In this document: in pieces, positions 13,195 to 20,714 of the stretch
Numbering within the stretch: the first letter of the stretch is position 1
Layout: each line of letters opens with the position of its first letter
Source of the DNA: Bacteroidia bacterium
GTDB lineage: Bacteria; Bacteroidota; Bacteroidia; Chitinophagales; JAUHXS01
Assembly: GCA_030426955.1 (NCBI GenBank)
Contig: JAUHXS010000002.1
Coordinates: 62,001-126,000 of the forward strand
Direction: 5' to 3'
DNA length: 64,000 nucleotides
Translations under genes and position numbers: made by a program
Notes under the pieces: generated by a model
The model's input: the letters and a program-made list of their open reading frames with translations, nothing else
The model's database searches: none
Told to the model about the DNA's origin: nothing

Positions 13195-13233
13195 GTTATA
13201 TTTATGCCTCTTTGAGTATTGACCTACTTTTAC

Positions 13234-16200
13234 ATGAGAATTAAACTGTTTTTTTTATCTCAATTATATATTCTGGCAATATGTCAGTCTGTTTTTGGTC
13301 AAGGCATTAATTTCAAAAACTTTAGTGTAGAGCAAGGGCTAGCACAATCTTATGTCTTAGATATTAACCAAGACGATGATGGCTATTTGTGGTTCTCTAC
13401 TGCAAGTGGCATTAGTCGCTTTGATGGGATAAACTTCAAACATTATTTCAAGCGAGATGGGTTAGCAGAGAATTATACACTATCAGGAATGATAGATAAT
13501 GAAGGTAAAATTTGGTTTGGACACTCCGCTGGGCATATATCTATTCTAAATAGGGTGTCTGATAGTATTACAATCTTTGAACATAAGGCATTTGATAATA
13601 CTAAGGTCGTTTATAAGATTTACCAAGATAGTGAAGGGGTTATTTGGATTGCTACAATTGGTAATGGTGTTTATAGACTAGAAGGAGACTCTTTAAAAAA
13701 TTTTAAAAATGGTTTCTTCGAAAACCATATGGTTTTTGATATCCAGGAAGATAAAAATGGGCATATCTTATTTGCAACAAATGGCGGAATATCAGCACTG
13801 AGAGAAAAAGAGGCTTACCTTGACAGTACCTCATACTTAACTATTGCTTTTAAAGAGGAGTTTTTAAATAGCAGGATTAGAGTTATATCAACAGATCAAA
13901 ATAATGATTTGTGGATTGGTACGGGTAATAGTGGTTTTCATAAACTGATTTATGATGATATCATAAATATTAATAAAGGGAGATATCAGATTAAAAGTTT
14001 TGGTGAGAAGTTCGAGAAAACTGTCATTAGAGATATCCTTAGCGATAAAAAGGGAAACACTTGGATAACTACTAGCGGTTCGGGAGTAATAAAGTACTAT
14101 AGAGATGAGCAAGAAATTGATCATTTGAGGTCATATATGGTTGAAAATAACTTAAGTAATAATAATGCTTGGAGCCTATTGGAGGATAATGAAGGAAATA
14201 TTTGGATAGGAACCCAAGGAGGAGGAGTTTGTAAATACAGTGGTGAACTTTTTGAAAACTATACCATAGATGATGGTTTAGTCGGTAAAAGTGTTTTTAC
14301 AATATTCGAAGATAGTAAGCAGAATTTTTGGATAGGGACTCAAGGCAAAGGAATTTCAGTATTTAAATACAATGAGATTAATGGACTATTAAGCCACTCT
14401 TTTAACCTTACAATGGAGAATGGGTTGTCGAATAATAGGGTAAGGTCAATTATTGAAGACAATCGAGGGAATATCTGGATCGGTTTATGGGGAACTGGGA
14501 TTGATGTATATAACCCTGTGACAAAAACAATTAAAACATATACACATGAAGATGGCTTAAGTGGTATGCACATAAGTGACATTAAGAAAGATACTAGAGG
14601 AAATATATACGTGGCAAACACAAATAGTCTTGACGTTTTTCAGGCGCGCACTAATAGTTTTACCCCTTTTGAAGTAAACGGAAAAAGTATAAATAAGTTT
14701 GTAAGGAGCATTCTATTCGATAAAGAAAACGTTTGGATTGCAACCAACGGATCAGGACTAATGCGTTATGATGGTCAGAAGCTGATCCAGTATGATAAGG
14801 ATAACAGCATTCTTAGTGGTTCTCAGGCTGTTTACTGTTTGGCTGCAGATGGGCAAGGAGGTATTTGGATTGGGACTGGAGGAGAAGGAGTATATAAATA
14901 TAATGGAGAGGAGTTTGAAAACTATACTACAGAAGATGGTTTAGTAAGCGATGAAGTATACATCATCACGACAGACTTCAATGGTAATATTTGGGTAGGA
15001 ACTGCTGCTGGAATGAACAAGATTGATGCGCAAGGTAATATAGATTTTTATGGAAAAAATGAGGGGTTTGGTGGTATCGAGACAAATGTAAATGCAGTAT
15101 TAAAGGATTCAAATAAAAACATGTGGTTTGGGACAATTAAAGGATTTGCAAAATGTGATGTCCGTTATGACAAAATCAATAAAAATGAGCCAATTCTTAA
15201 TATAAAGTCAGTAGAGGTAAAAGATATTGGTATTGTTGTGCCTACTACCCCTGATATTAACTTCTTTCCATATTATGCAAATGAGATTAAATTTAATTGG
15301 ATGGGCATTAGCCATACTTTTCCTGAGAAAGTGTTGTATCAGTTTATGCTAAAAGGAAAAGATGAGGCTTGGCGTCCTGTATCAGATAAAACGGACTTTA
15401 CTTATACCAATCTTGATCCAGGCAACTATAGTTTTATGATCAAGTCATCAAACAGTGATGGTCTTTGGAATGAAGAACCTTCTGTTTATGATTTTGCGAT
15501 TAAAACACCTTGGTATAAAACAATATTTGCCTACTTGCTTTATGTCATGGTTGCAATGCTCATTATATATACTTTTTTCAAGTATAGAATGATGCAGGTC
15601 GAAAAGGAGAAGAAAATATTAGAGGATAAAGTGACCGAAAGAACTGAGGAGTTGGTAAAAGAAAAGAATAAAGTAGAAGACCAGAAAGCAATTATTGAAC
15701 AAAAGAATCAAGATATAACAGATAGTATTCATTATGCCCAGAGAATACAAAAGGCTATTCTTCCTACCACGTCAATAATACAAAAATCACTCAAGGATAC
15801 CTTTGTATTATTCAGACCTAAAGATATCGTTAGTGGCGACTTTTATTGGTTTAAAGAAATAGAAGATAAGGCAATTATTGCTGCAGTGGATTGCACAGGA
15901 CATGGTGTGCCAGGTGGTTTTATGAGTATGATTGGGAATACTATGTTAAATAAAGTAGTTAATGAGTTGGACTTGCCTAAACCATCTGATATCTTATTTA
16001 ACCTTAGAGATGGTGTGATAAAGTCCTTGAATCAAGGAGGTGAAGAGTCAAAAGATGGGATGGATATGTCTCTTTGTGTGTTTCACAAAGAAAAGTTGAA
16101 AGTAGAATATGCTGGAGCATTTAACTCATTGTATCTAGTCAGAAATGGGGAGTTGATAGAAACAAAAGCAGATAAACAACCAATAGGAACCTATTATAGT

Positions 16201-16461
16201 AAAGATGATAAACCATTTACAAATCATGAGATAGATTTGCAAAAAGGAGATGCCATTTATCTATTTTCAGATGGGTATGCTGATCAGTTTGGAGGACCTT
16301 TGGGTAAGAAGTTTCGGTATAAGCAATTCAGAGAATTATTGGTTGGAATTTCCCATGAGTCACCTGAGAACCAAAAGCAAATCTTAAACCAAACCATAGA
16401 AAAGTGGATGGGGGATAAGAAGCAAGTGGATGATATCTTAGTTATCGGTATTAAGGTTTAA
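13234..16461 (+). CDS. Propeller sensor with SpoIIE/PP2C phosphatase output, paralogue 1 (SiaA-like role)
   Basis: I prefer the ATG at 13234 to the TTG at 13219 because it opens directly into a signal peptide ending in VFGQ. The 1075-residue protein then has repeated two-component-regulator propeller blades (G-x-I-W-I-G-T pattern) to about residue 650, a Y_Y_Y domain (about 680-755), one membrane helix (about 760-785), a coiled coil and a SpoIIE-type PP2C domain from about 830. Phosphatase metal-site motifs are SGDFYWF, DCTGHGVPGG, DGMD, FSDGYADQF and VDDIL. No histidine kinase domain is present. A periplasmic signal should control a cytoplasmic Ser/Thr phosphatase, most likely acting on SiaC (20263-20643). 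Confidence 0.88.
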   Translation: MRIKLFFLSQLYILAICQSVFGQGINFKNFSVEQGLAQSYVLDINQDDDGYLWFSTASGISRFDGINFKHYFKRDGLAENYTLSGMIDNEGKIWFGHSAGHISILNRVSDSITIFEHKAFDNTKVVYKIYQDSEGVIWIATIGNGVYRLEGDSLKNFKNGFFENHMVFDIQEDKNGHILFATNGGISALREKEAYLDSTSYLTIAFKEEFLNSRIRVISTDQNNDLWIGTGNSGFHKLIYDDIININKGRYQIKSFGEKFEKTVIRDILSDKKGNTWITTSGSGVIKYYRDEQEIDHLRSYMVENNLSNNNAWSLLEDNEGNIWIGTQGGGVCKYSGELFENYTIDDGLVGKSVFTIFEDSKQNFWIGTQGKGISVFKYNEINGLLSHSFNLTMENGLSNNRVRSIIEDNRGNIWIGLWGTGIDVYNPVTKTIKTYTHEDGLSGMHISDIKKDTRGNIYVANTNSLDVFQARTNSFTPFEVNGKSINKFVRSILFDKENVWIATNGSGLMRYDGQKLIQYDKDNSILSGSQAVYCLAADGQGGIWIGTGGEGVYKYNGEEFENYTTEDGLVSDEVYIITTDFNGNIWVGTAAGMNKIDAQGNIDFYGKNEGFGGIETNVNAVLKDSNKNMWFGTIKGFAKCDVRYDKINKNEPILNIKSVEVKDIGIVVPTTPDINFFPYYANEIKFNWMGISHTFPEKVLYQFMLKGKDEAWRPVSDKTDFTYTNLDPGNYSFMIKSSNSDGLWNEEPSVYDFAIKTPWYKTIFAYLLYVMVAMLIIYTFFKYRMMQVEKEKKILEDKVTERTEELVKEKNKVEDQKAIIEQKNQDITDSIHYAQRIQKAILPTTSIIQKSLKDTFVLFRPKDIVSGDFYWFKEIEDKAIIAAVDCTGHGVPGGFMSMIGNTMLNKVVNELDLPKPSDILFNLRDGVIKSLNQGGEESKDGMDMSLCVFHKEKLKVEYAGAFNSLYLVRNGELIETKADKQPIGTYYSKDDKPFTNHEIDLQKGDAIYLFSDGYADQFGGPLGKKFRYKQFRELLVGISHESPENQKQILNQTIEKWMGDKKQVDDILVIGIKV

Positions 16462-16523
16462 TGTTATCCAATTTAATCTTTATTAATTAAAACACTATCT
16501 TTAGTCGTCAAATTAAGCTTATA

Positions 16524-19500
16524 ATGACGTTGAGGTTATTAAAGATTATTTTCCTATTCTCTTTGTTTAAATTAGGCTATGGCCAGCAATATTTTTTTAA
16601 AAACATTGCTATAGAAGATGGCTTAGTCCAATCTCAAGTAACTGAAATAATTCAAGATCACAGAGGATATCTTTGGTTTGGCACATATGGGGGGATTACA
16701 AGGTATGATGGCAAATTCTTGAAAAACTATACAATCCATGATGGGCTGAAAGACATCTTTATTCACTCTTTTTTGGAAAGTAGCAAGAAAGATTTTTGGG
16801 TAGGGACAAATAAGGGTATACACCGATATGCTAAAGACAGGTTTAATTACGTAGAAAGTGTAGGTGAGAGAGTTGTCAATGATATTAAAGAAGATGTTGA
16901 GGGTAATATTTGGGTAGGAACACCCAAAGGGTTGTTTGTGCTTAGTAATAAGATGGATTCCTCTTGGGAAATTAGCATTTCTAAAAATATTCAACTTGAT
17001 ATTTATGCTCTTGAATTTGTAAGTAAGAACGAATTACTGATAGGCACTAAAAAAAGAGGATTATGGAAACACGATATTAAAAGTGGATCGACAGACAGTT
17101 TCTTATCAATTAAGCCTAATATGACTATTCATGATTTACATAAACTAGATGCTAATAATTTATATGTTGCAACATCCTCAGGGATGTACGTTGTTGGGAA
17201 TGATGGCGAAATAATAGATTCATTTTATCAAAACGTTCAAGTGATTCATATGGAATTTGATGCTGACGCCATTTGTTGGTTGGCAACTAAGGGTAAGGGG
17301 GCAGTGCAGCTAAATTTGAAAAATGGAAATACAATTGAGTTTAATAGAGAAAGTGGATTGGGGAGCGACGAGGTATATAGCATATATCAGGATAGGGAAA
17401 AAAACACATGGATAGGCACGTACGGAGATGGAGTAAGTGTCTTTAATGGATTTAAATTCATAACCTATACTAAGCTTGATGGTTTAAAAAGTGATGGAAT
17501 AGCCTCTATTATAGAGCTGGATCAAAATAATATCATACTAGGAACTACTGAGGCAGGCTTGCAATATTTAAAAAAAGAAGATCAATACGTAGTCTCTGAA
17601 AATCCTTTAATTAAGGCTATAGTGGGCAAAAAGATATGGAGTTCCTTTAAAGATAGTAAAGGGAATTTTTGGTTTGGAACGACAGATGGGGTGTATATAT
17701 ATGATGGTAAGCGAACAGAAAACTATGGTGTAGATAATGGATTTTATAATGATGTTATATATACAATTGAAGAAGATTCAAAGAGAAATATTTGGCTAGG
17801 AACCCAAGTGGGTGCTGTTAGGTATTCTAATGGTAGTTTTGATACATACTTAAAAGAAGATGGATTGCCCGATAATTGGATTTGGGATATATATAATGAT
17901 GACAGTGGTTATGTTTGGTTTAGCACGGGACAAGGTGTTTCTAGATATGACGGAAAATCCTTTAAAACGTTTAGTTCTCCGCAAATAAGCTCTTTGAAAA
18001 GTGATATACTGGCGACAATTCAAGATCGTTGGGGGAATATGTGGTTTGCAAGTTACGGAGGAGGGTTGATTAACTATAATTCTCAGGATAGCACATATAA
18101 GGTTTTTAATACTGCAGATGGATTAAAAGATGCTTCCTTATTGTTAATGACCATTGATAATAATAATAATTTATGGGTAGGACATAGTAAAGGGCTTGAC
18201 AGGTTAGACTTGAAAAGATATTATAATGAAAAGAAACCGACCTTCAATCATTATGGTAAAAATCAAGGATTTGTTGGCATTGAAAGTATCCAAAATGCAG
18301 TATATAAAGATAGGAAAGGTAAGTTGTGGTTTGGGACAATAAAGGGAGTTACTAAGTATGATCCCGATTATGATAGTTATAATCCAATTCCCCCGCAAAC
18401 ATTTATAAAAAATATTACCGTAAATAAGGCAAGCATTGATATAGATTCTAGTGTCCATTTCGAATACAATCAAAACCGATTTACTTTTGAATGGATAGGT
18501 ATTAGCTTAACGGCACCTGAAAAAGTTAAATATCAATTCAAGCTAGAAGGACTAGAAGATGAGTGGAGCCCCATCACTGAAAAAACAGACTTTACCTATT
18601 CAAACCTACCTCATGGTAATTATGTCTTTAAAGTAAAGGCCAGAAATGGTAATGATGTTTGGAATGAACACCCAAGTGTGTATGCATTTACTATAAGGAC
18701 GCCATTCTATCTTGCTTTATGGTTTTGGTTATTATGCTTATTGTCCCTATTTGCAATAATATATGCTTATGTTAAGTATAGAACGATTCAAATAGAGAAA
18801 GAAAAGAAGATTCTTGAAGCAAAAGTTGAAGAGAGAACACAAGAGTTGGTAAAAGAGAAGGAAAAAGTTGAACTAATCAATAAGGAGGTATTGGAGCAAA
18901 AAGAAATTATTGAAGAAAAGAATAAAGATATTACCGATAGCATCAATTATGCAAAGCAAATACAAGATGCAATTCTTCCTGTACAAGAGGTTATTTATAA
19001 GTCTTTTAAAGATGCAGCAATCCTCTTTTTGCCCAAAGATATCGTAAGTGGTGATTTTTATTGGTTTGCAAGGAAAGATGACAAAGCTATTATCGCAGCG
19101 GTAGATTGTACTGGACATGGTGTCCCAGGGGCCTTTATGTCCATGATAGGCAACGACTCCTTAAACCATATAGTAAATCATAATGATATCACTCAACCAG
19201 CTGAGATATTGCATCATTTGCACTTAGCAATTCAAAGAGCCTTGAAGCAAAACAAAGAAGACTCAAGCTCAAGAGATGGTATGGATATAGCATTATGTGC
19301 CTTTGATATTAAGACAAACGTACTTGAGTATGCAGGAGCTTTTCGCCCTCTTTATTTACTAAAAAAGGATACTAAAGAGCTAGAAGAGGTTAAGGGAGAT
19401 AGATGCTCCATCGGTGGATTTCAGGTGGAGGAAGGGGATAGGACTTTTGAAAATCATCGAATAGAACTACAAAAGGGAGATTCTTTTTATATTTTCTCTG

Positions 19501-19694
19501 ATGGCTATGCAGATCAGTTTGGAGGAGAGAGAGGTAAAAAGTTTTTAGCCAAGAGATTTAAAGAGTTAATTATCAATAATTCTGCCAAAAAAATGGAAGA
19601 GCAAGTAGAAATATTTAAAAATAATTTCATAACTTGGCGTGCAAATTATGAGCAGATCGATGACGTTCTGATCATAGGTGTTAAAGTCAGCTAA
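16524..19694 (+). CDS. Propeller sensor with SpoIIE/PP2C phosphatase output, paralogue 2 (SiaA-like role)
   Basis: This 1056-residue paralogue of the preceding gene has the same order: signal peptide ending in GYGQ, propeller repeats to about residue 620, Y_Y_Y domain, membrane helix (about 729-752), coiled coil rich in Lys and Glu, and a SpoIIE phosphatase from about 805. Motifs SGDFYWF, DCTGHGVPGAFMSMIGND, RDGMD and FSDGYADQFGG are intact, so both copies should be active. The phosphatase domains are much more alike than the propellers, which suggests different signals and a shared target. A TATCTTTA element near 16494 resembles a weak Bacteroidota -7 box and could give separate expression. 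siaB follows after 9 bases. Confidence 0.88.
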   Translation: MTLRLLKIIFLFSLFKLGYGQQYFFKNIAIEDGLVQSQVTEIIQDHRGYLWFGTYGGITRYDGKFLKNYTIHDGLKDIFIHSFLESSKKDFWVGTNKGIHRYAKDRFNYVESVGERVVNDIKEDVEGNIWVGTPKGLFVLSNKMDSSWEISISKNIQLDIYALEFVSKNELLIGTKKRGLWKHDIKSGSTDSFLSIKPNMTIHDLHKLDANNLYVATSSGMYVVGNDGEIIDSFYQNVQVIHMEFDADAICWLATKGKGAVQLNLKNGNTIEFNRESGLGSDEVYSIYQDREKNTWIGTYGDGVSVFNGFKFITYTKLDGLKSDGIASIIELDQNNIILGTTEAGLQYLKKEDQYVVSENPLIKAIVGKKIWSSFKDSKGNFWFGTTDGVYIYDGKRTENYGVDNGFYNDVIYTIEEDSKRNIWLGTQVGAVRYSNGSFDTYLKEDGLPDNWIWDIYNDDSGYVWFSTGQGVSRYDGKSFKTFSSPQISSLKSDILATIQDRWGNMWFASYGGGLINYNSQDSTYKVFNTADGLKDASLLLMTIDNNNNLWVGHSKGLDRLDLKRYYNEKKPTFNHYGKNQGFVGIESIQNAVYKDRKGKLWFGTIKGVTKYDPDYDSYNPIPPQTFIKNITVNKASIDIDSSVHFEYNQNRFTFEWIGISLTAPEKVKYQFKLEGLEDEWSPITEKTDFTYSNLPHGNYVFKVKARNGNDVWNEHPSVYAFTIRTPFYLALWFWLLCLLSLFAIIYAYVKYRTIQIEKEKKILEAKVEERTQELVKEKEKVELINKEVLEQKEIIEEKNKDITDSINYAKQIQDAILPVQEVIYKSFKDAAILFLPKDIVSGDFYWFARKDDKAIIAAVDCTGHGVPGAFMSMIGNDSLNHIVNHNDITQPAEILHHLHLAIQRALKQNKEDSSSRDGMDIALCAFDIKTNVLEYAGAFRPLYLLKKDTKELEEVKGDRCSIGGFQVEEGDRTFENHRIELQKGDSFYIFSDGYADQFGGERGKKFLAKRFKELIINNSAKKMEEQVEIFKNNFITWRANYEQIDDVLIIGVKVS

Positions 19695-19703
19695 TCTTTG
19701 TAG

Positions 19704-20255
19704 ATGTTCGATACTTATCACTTTTACGAAACCATGGAGCAGAACGATATTCTGCTTTTGTATAAGGGAAATATTACATCTGATCTAGTCAGTTCATTGC
19801 TTCACATGACAGAAGCTAGGCTAGAAAATATGGATGAAGCACCTAAGATTAAAAGAAAAGTATTTAACGTTTTAGTTGAATGCTTGCAAAACGTTTATCA
19901 TCATAGAGATCAAGGGGAAAGTTTTGAGGGAGGAAATTCTGCAATTCTGATGCTTGGTAAAAAAGATGATGATTATTTTATCGTTACTGGTAACATGATT
20001 TTTGCAAAAAATGTAGAAGGTTTAAATGATAGGTTAGACAGACTTAATAAACTTTCGAAAGAAGAATTAAAGCTAGCATATCAAGATGTACTAGCAAACA
20101 AAGGATTTTCAGAAAAAGGAGGGGCTGGCTTAGGCTTTATTGATATTTTGAGGAAATCTGGACAAAGATTAGATTATAGATTTCAGAAGATAAACGATGA
20201 ATTTTCGTTTTTTAGTTTGAAAGTTAAAATCTCGCAAACCGCACAAATTAAATAG
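19704..20255 (+). CDS. siaB: SiaB-family protein kinase (GHKL fold)
   Basis: This 183-residue protein matches the SiaB/DUF6272 family. It has a degenerate histidine-kinase-like ATPase fold with an N-box (LVECLQNVYHHRD, E59 and N63) and a G-box (GGAGLGF, residues 139-145). In Pseudomonas aeruginosa SiaB phosphorylates SiaC on a threonine while the SiaA PP2C phosphatase removes the phosphate. The same three parts occur here side by side: two phosphatases upstream and SiaC 7 bases downstream. It is cytoplasmic. The family call is good; partner identity is inferred from synteny. Confidence 0.82.
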   Translation: MFDTYHFYETMEQNDILLLYKGNITSDLVSSLLHMTEARLENMDEAPKIKRKVFNVLVECLQNVYHHRDQGESFEGGNSAILMLGKKDDDYFIVTGNMIFAKNVEGLNDRLDRLNKLSKEELKLAYQDVLANKGFSEKGGAGLGFIDILRKSGQRLDYRFQKINDEFSFFSLKVKISQTAQIK

Positions 20256-20262
20256 GAAAAAT

Positions 20263-20643
20263 ATGGACGCTGTAAATATAGAACCGAGTAGTAAAACACC
20301 TAAAGTATGTTTAGATTCTTCACAAGGTGTTTTTGAGATAGAAGGACGATCTATTCCTGAAAATTCAACTGAGTTTTACAAGCCAGTTTTTGATTGGTTA
20401 GATGCATATATTGGAAGTTCTAATAGTGAAACTGAGTTTAACTTTAAGTTGGAGTATTTTAATACAAGCTCATCAAAATGTATTTTAGATATATTTAGAA
20501 AATTAGAAAAGCTTCATGAAAGTGGTAGCAATGTTACTATCAAATGGCATTATGAAGAAGATGATGAGGATATGCAAGAAGCAGGTGAAGATTACCAAAG
20601 TATTGTAAAAGTTCCAGTGGAGCTTGTTATGATGGAAGAGTAA
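20263..20643 (+). CDS. siaC: SiaC-family regulatory phosphoprotein (DUF1987)
   Basis: This 126-residue acidic protein matches the SiaC/DUF1987 family. The segment EYFNTSSSK places a threonine at residue 68, the number reported for the phosphorylated threonine of P. aeruginosa SiaC, inside the same N-T-S-S context. In Pseudomonas unphosphorylated SiaC activates the diguanylate cyclase SiaD. No GGDEF protein is in this window, so the output partner is unknown. It is the last gene before a strong terminator, which closes the sensor-phosphatase-kinase unit. Confidence 0.83.
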   Translation: MDAVNIEPSSKTPKVCLDSSQGVFEIEGRSIPENSTEFYKPVFDWLDAYIGSSNSETEFNFKLEYFNTSSSKCILDIFRKLEKLHESGSNVTIKWHYEEDDEDMQEAGEDYQSIVKVPVELVMMEE

Positions 20644-20660
20644 AACGTGAAAGTATTATA

Positions 20661-20698
20661 AAAAGAGGGTTGCTAGTTTTCTAGCAACCCTCTTTTTA
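20661..20698 (+). terminator. Intrinsic terminator after siaC
   Basis: A perfect 16-pair stem (arms 20661-20676 and 20681-20696) with a TTTT loop contains a GC-rich core (GAGGGTTGCTAG) and ends in a T-run. It begins 18 bases after the siaC stop and is oriented to end the mazG-to-siaC transcript. Confidence 0.95.
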
Positions 20699-20714
20699 TT
20701 TGTGAGAATACTTA

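Follow-up and report, generated by a model that had tools for sequence, protein, structure and literature searches.

A probable SiaABC-type partner switch with two propeller-sensing phosphatases and a putative c-di-GMP-independent output in a Bacteroidia bacterium

We investigated a row of four genes in a 64,000-nucleotide stretch of DNA (the window; positions 62001-126000 of contig C11) from a Bacteroidia bacterium whose 3.41-Mb genome is 97.4% complete and falls in Bacteroidota by its closest matches. The row encodes two large propeller-sensing phosphatases, here called P1 and P2, followed by a SiaB-family kinase and a SiaC-family phosphoprotein. We consider, with a probability of roughly 0.7, that these proteins work as a partner switch of the SiaABC type that is fed by more than one phosphatase and has an output independent of cyclic diguanylate (c-di-GMP). 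In Pseudomonas aeruginosa, SiaC has been shown to be phosphorylated at T68 (PMC7647112), and its unphosphorylated form binds two stalk motifs of SiaD, which activates c-di-GMP synthesis (PMC8457831). Within a limited collection of literature, we found nothing on Bacteroidota for DUF6272, DUF1987, SpoIIE partner switches, or propellers combined with SpoIIE. The locus would be a new form of this switch, in which propellers provide the inputs and the putative output does not involve c-di-GMP.

Results

P1 (13234..16461), P2 (16524..19694), SiaB (19704..20255), and SiaC (20263..20643) are four consecutive genes on the + strand, with all reading frames intact and intergenic gaps of 62, 9, and 7 nt, respectively. 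This tight row agrees with an initial annotation of the window, which gave the same coordinates and had placed both large proteins directly before SiaB and SiaC. For P1, the ATG at 13234 is the more likely start, with a TTG at 13219 as the alternative. No terminator was found between P1 and P2, and a strong intrinsic terminator is predicted on the + strand immediately 3' of SiaC (20658..20699; 19-bp stem, 4-nt loop, -29.3 kcal/mol, z -9.25); it was overlooked by the terminator scanner, spotted by eye, and then folded. The unit contains no partner gene 3' of SiaC.

P1 and P2 share one layout: a signal peptide, a Reg_prop propeller, a Y_Y_Y domain, one transmembrane (TM) helix, a coil, and a C-terminal SpoIIE/PP2C domain. 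The signal peptide and TM helix were read off the sequence, and the other domains came from the domain search, which returned Reg_prop, Y_Y_Y, and SpoIIE only (1.3e-55, 1.3e-14, and 2.3e-19 for P1; 1.4e-40, 1.3e-15, and 3.7e-19 for P2) and no histidine kinase or receiver domain. On the + strand, the Y_Y_Y domains are located at 15316..15501 in P1 (residues 700-761 numbered from 13219) and 18513..18695 in P2, and the SpoIIE/PP2C domains at 15868..16455 and 19077..19688. Both PP2C domains keep the metal-site motifs SGDF, DCTGHGVPG, and SDGYADQ, so that they are intact, as initially annotated. When the phosphatase half of P2 was compared with the PDB, the top match was SiaA (6k4e, E 3.9e-41), with runner-up matches at about 1e-4. 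In addition, both proteins carry the SiaA linker DSxxYAxxIQxAILP, as ITDSIHYAQRIQKAILP in P1 (15715..15765, + strand) and ITDSINYAKQIQDAILP in P2 (18930..18980, + strand), a motif common to P. aeruginosa SiaA (KKIGDSLDYASLIQRAILP).

The SiaB protein matched PF19788 (5.6e-42) and the NCBIfam model SiaB_fam_kinase (168.4 bits; cut-off 85). Its Glu59, of the catalytic type (codon at 19878-19880, + strand), aligns with the catalytic Glu of P. aeruginosa SiaB and was invariant in 122 sequences. SiaC matched PF09345 (7.5e-47, 158 bits), and its presumed phosphorylation site T68 (codon at 20464..20466, + strand; context YFNTSSSK) lines up with the threonine that is phosphorylated in P. aeruginosa SiaC (also T68), which bears out the N-T-S-S context proposed earlier. 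Threonine occupies this position in 126 of the 129 aligned SiaC sequences, and serine in the other three. Scores were below the NCBIfam cut-offs for the P. aeruginosa equivalogs (SiaB, 86.6 vs 225 bits; SiaC, 101.6 vs 150). By these scores, SiaB and SiaC are members of the families of their Pseudomonas counterparts but do not belong to the same equivalogs. The SiaA model aligned only with the C-terminal parts of P1 and P2 (203 and 212 bits), far under its cut-off of 700, because the sensor part differs.

The window thus resembles the SiaABCD system of P. aeruginosa (PMC7647112, PMC8457831) in the SiaA-type PP2C with its linker, the gene order A-B-C, the catalytic Glu of SiaB, and T68 of SiaC in its NTSS context. 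It differs in having two phosphatases with propeller/Y_Y_Y sensors, whereas the N-terminus of SiaA has a HAMP domain. Moreover, the SiaC positions that touch SiaD in the crystal structure consistently differ in Bacteroidia (I71S, D79K/R, R103D, and D114I), whereas Y65, N67, T68, and S69 are kept.

SiaD is also absent. The initial annotation had noted this for the window, and it extends to the assembly: no GGDEF domain was detected in the genome at E <= 0.001, while 8 of 14 control genomes gave matches. In a sample of 395 genomes of the class, SiaC was present in 213 and GGDEF exceeded the cut-off in only six, four of which were SiaC-positive; GGDEF was therefore missing at this cut-off from 209 of the 213 SiaC-positive genomes. 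As no GGDEF is detectable in the genome of the window, the SiaC partner is probably not a diguanylate cyclase. These counts support a switch that would act without c-di-GMP and would reach far beyond the window.

We propose the following mechanism, in which the phosphorylation cycle, its direction, and partner binding by unphosphorylated SiaC follow P. aeruginosa by homology (PMC7647112, PMC8457831). In the default state, SiaB would phosphorylate SiaC at T68. P1 and P2 would be membrane receptors whose periplasmic propellers sense an external signal, which may be relayed by Y_Y_Y, the TM helix, and the linker-bearing coil (ITDSINYAxxIQxAILP) to activate the cytoplasmic PP2C. The activated PP2C would dephosphorylate SiaC, which could then bind a partner other than a diguanylate cyclase. 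Gene adjacency suggests that both phosphatases act on the SiaC of the window, in which case either signal would suffice, and P1 and P2 would form an OR gate opposing SiaB. The initial annotation had spoken of two signals competing over one phosphoprotein. We find no support for this reading: taking the same phosphate off SiaC, the two phosphatases would act in the same direction, against SiaB, and we saw no hint of antagonism.

We compared P1 and P2 with the phosphatases of their own genome, which encodes 16 SpoIIE proteins, 14 of them SiaA-type by score and linker. The PP2C halves of P1 and P2 are 54-55% identical and their sensors 32-33%, so that the phosphatase domains are indeed more alike than the sensors, as had been remarked. 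However, this likeness is uninformative on a shared substrate because it is generic to the 14 SiaA-type phosphatases, among which the P1-P2 value (54.6%) ranks 8 of 91 pairs. P1 and P2 each have a closer PP2C relative elsewhere in the genome; for P1, these are L022 (contig C5, 56.4%) and L021 (55.4%). A third propeller-PP2C, on contig C6, is equally close to both (PP2C, 53-55%; sensors, 32-33%). Recent duplication of P1 and P2 was rejected, since their sensors have diverged this far and either protein is as close to this third paralogue as to the other. In the tree, all three lie outside the canonical propeller-PP2C clade described below, on long branches that make placement unsure, and orthology of P1 or P2 with that clade is unsupported.

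We next describe the layout across Bacteroidia, based on 80 loci of SiaC orthologues (best matches in named Bacteroidota genomes) and 40 chosen loci, which are not a random sample. Among the 63 of the 80 loci with 4.5 kb of upstream sequence, 37 had a co-directional PP2C upstream of SiaB-SiaC. The commonest order was propeller-PP2C, a lipoprotein of about 290 aa, SiaB, and SiaC. This canonical locus (e.g., L054) is like the window in its row of propeller-PP2C, SiaB, and SiaC and in that GGDEF is missing from most genomes of the class, whereas the window has a second propeller-PP2C instead of the lipoprotein. Hybrid two-component propeller sensors of Bacteroidota combine Reg_prop and Y_Y_Y with a histidine kinase; P1 and P2 have the same periplasmic sensor layout but a PP2C output without histidine kinase or receiver. 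The initial annotation treated this replacement as an oddity, but a propeller-PP2C beside SiaB-SiaC is widespread in Bacteroidia.

A tandem propeller-PP2C pair before SiaB-SiaC also occurs in L142, from genome G085 of another family of the class. L142 differs from the window in a third phosphatase of the PAS-PP2C type, two SiaB genes (two propeller-PP2C, PAS-PP2C, SiaB, SiaB, SiaC), and a same-strand ABC transporter gene downstream; its pair is also more alike mutually than P1 and P2 (47% in the sensor, 60% in PP2C). Four further loci (L143, L064, L076, and L161) each have one propeller phosphatase and one other phosphatase. The arrangement in the window is thus a recurrent variant rather than a unique one.

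In L054:8536-9411, L051:8540-9409, L028:8483-9406, and 44 more loci, a member of the lipoprotein family (about 270-310 aa) is encoded between siaB and the gene of the propeller phosphatase. The lipoprotein matched no Pfam family, and its predicted fold, all-beta with an N-terminal helix (predicted local distance difference test, pLDDT, 83), had no confident PDB match. It was not found in the searched loci of this organism and its relatives, which cover part of its genome. The lipoprotein might regulate the propeller or serve as its ligand. In many loci, siaC also adjoins the gene of a large ABC transporter whose N-terminus holds a TerB-like domain (L142:1163-4288, L047:10439-13501, and others). 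We rejected this transporter as the output: apart from L142, where it is on the same strand, it is mostly convergent with siaC, so that the association is synteny and not an operon. At L116:4284-5675, genome G010 has three tandem SiaC genes, and this genome gave 14 SiaC matches in total.

The genome of the window gave four SiaC matches, possibly a fifth, and SiaB domains in five genes. Many phosphatases feeding few SiaC is therefore a genome-wide property, not special to the window. For one SiaC paralogue (L011:7915-8316, contig C19), the gene joins an ftsA-ftsZ row, starting 12 nt past ftsZ, and the residue at the T68 position is Ser (NSASS); among the fetched loci, ftsZ was present in L011 alone. 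On the same contig, a 349-aa protein with two tandem SiaB domains (L011:10146-11195) is encoded on the strand opposite the nearby SiaC gene. In L012:14327-17733 (contig C18), genes for a histidine kinase and for a response regulator come after SiaB-SiaC on the same strand, a possible output link of this copy. In L015:8914-9510 (contig C9), a SiaB gene lies at the contig end, and the fifth SiaC may lie beyond it.

Discussion

The observation of the initial annotation is confirmed, and its interpretation of the locus is partly supported. Several points weigh against a switch in which P1 and P2 both act on the SiaC of the window without c-di-GMP. Because the assembly is 97.4% complete, a GGDEF protein might be encoded in the remainder, although the class-wide absence of GGDEF makes this less likely. 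With 14 SiaA-type phosphatases, at least four SiaC, and five SiaB in the genome, the target of P1 or of P2 might be a different SiaC; as ancient paralogues, the two could also bind different substrates. It is accordingly conceivable, although we regard it as unlikely, that only one phosphatase, probably P2 at 9 nt before siaB, serves the window SiaC, and that P1 acts on another SiaC or STAS-like protein and was placed here by local gene shuffling. The closer PP2C relatives of P1 elsewhere, the sharing of four or five SiaC by 14 phosphatases, and the single propeller-PP2C of the usual Bacteroidia locus are consistent with this. However, P1 and P2 are on the same strand, separated by 62 nt with no terminator found between them, and L142 independently has a tandem propeller-PP2C pair before SiaB-SiaC.

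The output allows further explanations. SiaC might control the flanking surface-polysaccharide genes or enzymes, which we consider about as improbable as a single serving phosphatase. The left flank encodes NeuB (nonulosonate) and a cytidylyltransferase, and the right flank an RmlB-type NAD-dependent dehydratase, CpsB/CapC, RmlC, and RmlD; in the survey, 28 of 81 loci, of which 27 have a propeller-PP2C, had a glycosyltransferase and/or asparagine-synthase gene from a shared cluster close to the unit. Nevertheless, the terminator stands between siaC and rmlB, other loci commonly have fructose-bisphosphate aldolase and accD downstream, the polysaccharide association may stem from inheritance of a single block of synteny, and no binding motif was found in the flanking polysaccharide proteins. 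As a pointer to the output, these genes are only a hint. The least probable of the explanations, in our view, is that SiaC regulates an anti-sigma/sigma-type target, as in RsbV/SpoIIAA systems: SiaC structurally resembles anti-sigma factor antagonists (PMC7647112), but no sigma or anti-sigma gene was beside the SiaC loci examined, and the one target on which SiaC has been tested is the stalk of an enzyme (PMC8457831).

A further candidate came from the two SiaD docking motifs in 7e6g (VRLERIARISDGFQSMAREQ and RRLEKVARISDRYQQMMRDL). When a motif built from the published SiaD contacts was compared with all open reading frames (ORFs) of the fetched loci, three proteins matched, each encoded one or two genes after siaC; they are 155-194 aa long with a coiled coil, a C-terminal TM helix, and no cyclase. 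Such coil proteins bear LTRIADRNQ, LTSVSDRLQ, or LTKISDKLE and share with SiaD the pattern hydrophobic-x-[RKS]-[IV]-[SA]-D-[RK]-x-[QE], with G for R/K in the first SiaD motif. The motif was fixed after one coil protein had been seen, so that these first three matches are not independent, whereas class-wide co-occurrence and adjacency are. Profile searches of the class gave strong coil matches in 24 genomes, which belong to 10 families and are SiaC-positive without exception (24/24; hypergeometric 2e-7 with relatedness ignored, about 0.002 counted by families). By coordinates, the coil gene is directly 3' of siaC in 21 of the 24, frequently with a 4-nt overlap with the siaC stop. Examples of this position are L160:10741-11325, L169:10032-10995, L185-L198, L200, L203, and L207-L209, and f64 genomes have two coil genes in a row.

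Adjacency and motif suggest that coil proteins may bind SiaC. However, the coil profile reached SiaD in the PDB only at a non-significant E of 8.6 (rank 22), the motif-only short profile had no match, and a single coil protein matched unrelated coiled coils only; coiled coils match by composition, and the changed SiaD-contacting positions of Bacteroidia SiaC also speak against docking of the SiaD kind. In the genome of the window, two profile searches found no member of the coil family. A DNA pattern for the SiaD-stalk-like motif gave three matches there, which did not exceed the reversed control (4 forward, 1 reverse), and no match lay in an ORF of >=50 aa. As SiaC partners, we likewise rejected proteins that have the ITDSINYA linker and lack PP2C, as the full motif in this genome is limited to SpoIIE phosphatases. 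We therefore find it improbable, somewhat more so than control of the flanking genes, that the output here is a membrane-anchored coiled-coil protein with such a docking motif whose own-genome copy is too diverged to detect or falls outside the assembled sequence.

Our preferred explanation remains the SiaABC-type switch described above, into which more than one phosphatase would feed and whose output would not depend on c-di-GMP. For the class, at slightly less than even odds, we suggest that SiaABC has been uncoupled from c-di-GMP, that unphosphorylated SiaC docks on coil proteins in about ten families and on other partners elsewhere, including this organism, and that many sensor-phosphatases feed few SiaC. 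SiaC is present in approximately half of the sampled genomes of the class, yet nearly all of these lack the one output that has been tested, a diguanylate cyclase, which implies that a widespread switch must drive something else. The coil protein is a concrete, testable output candidate in several families, and the 14 SiaA-type phosphatases against four or five SiaC make this organism suited to work on how many inputs come together on a small number of phosphoproteins.

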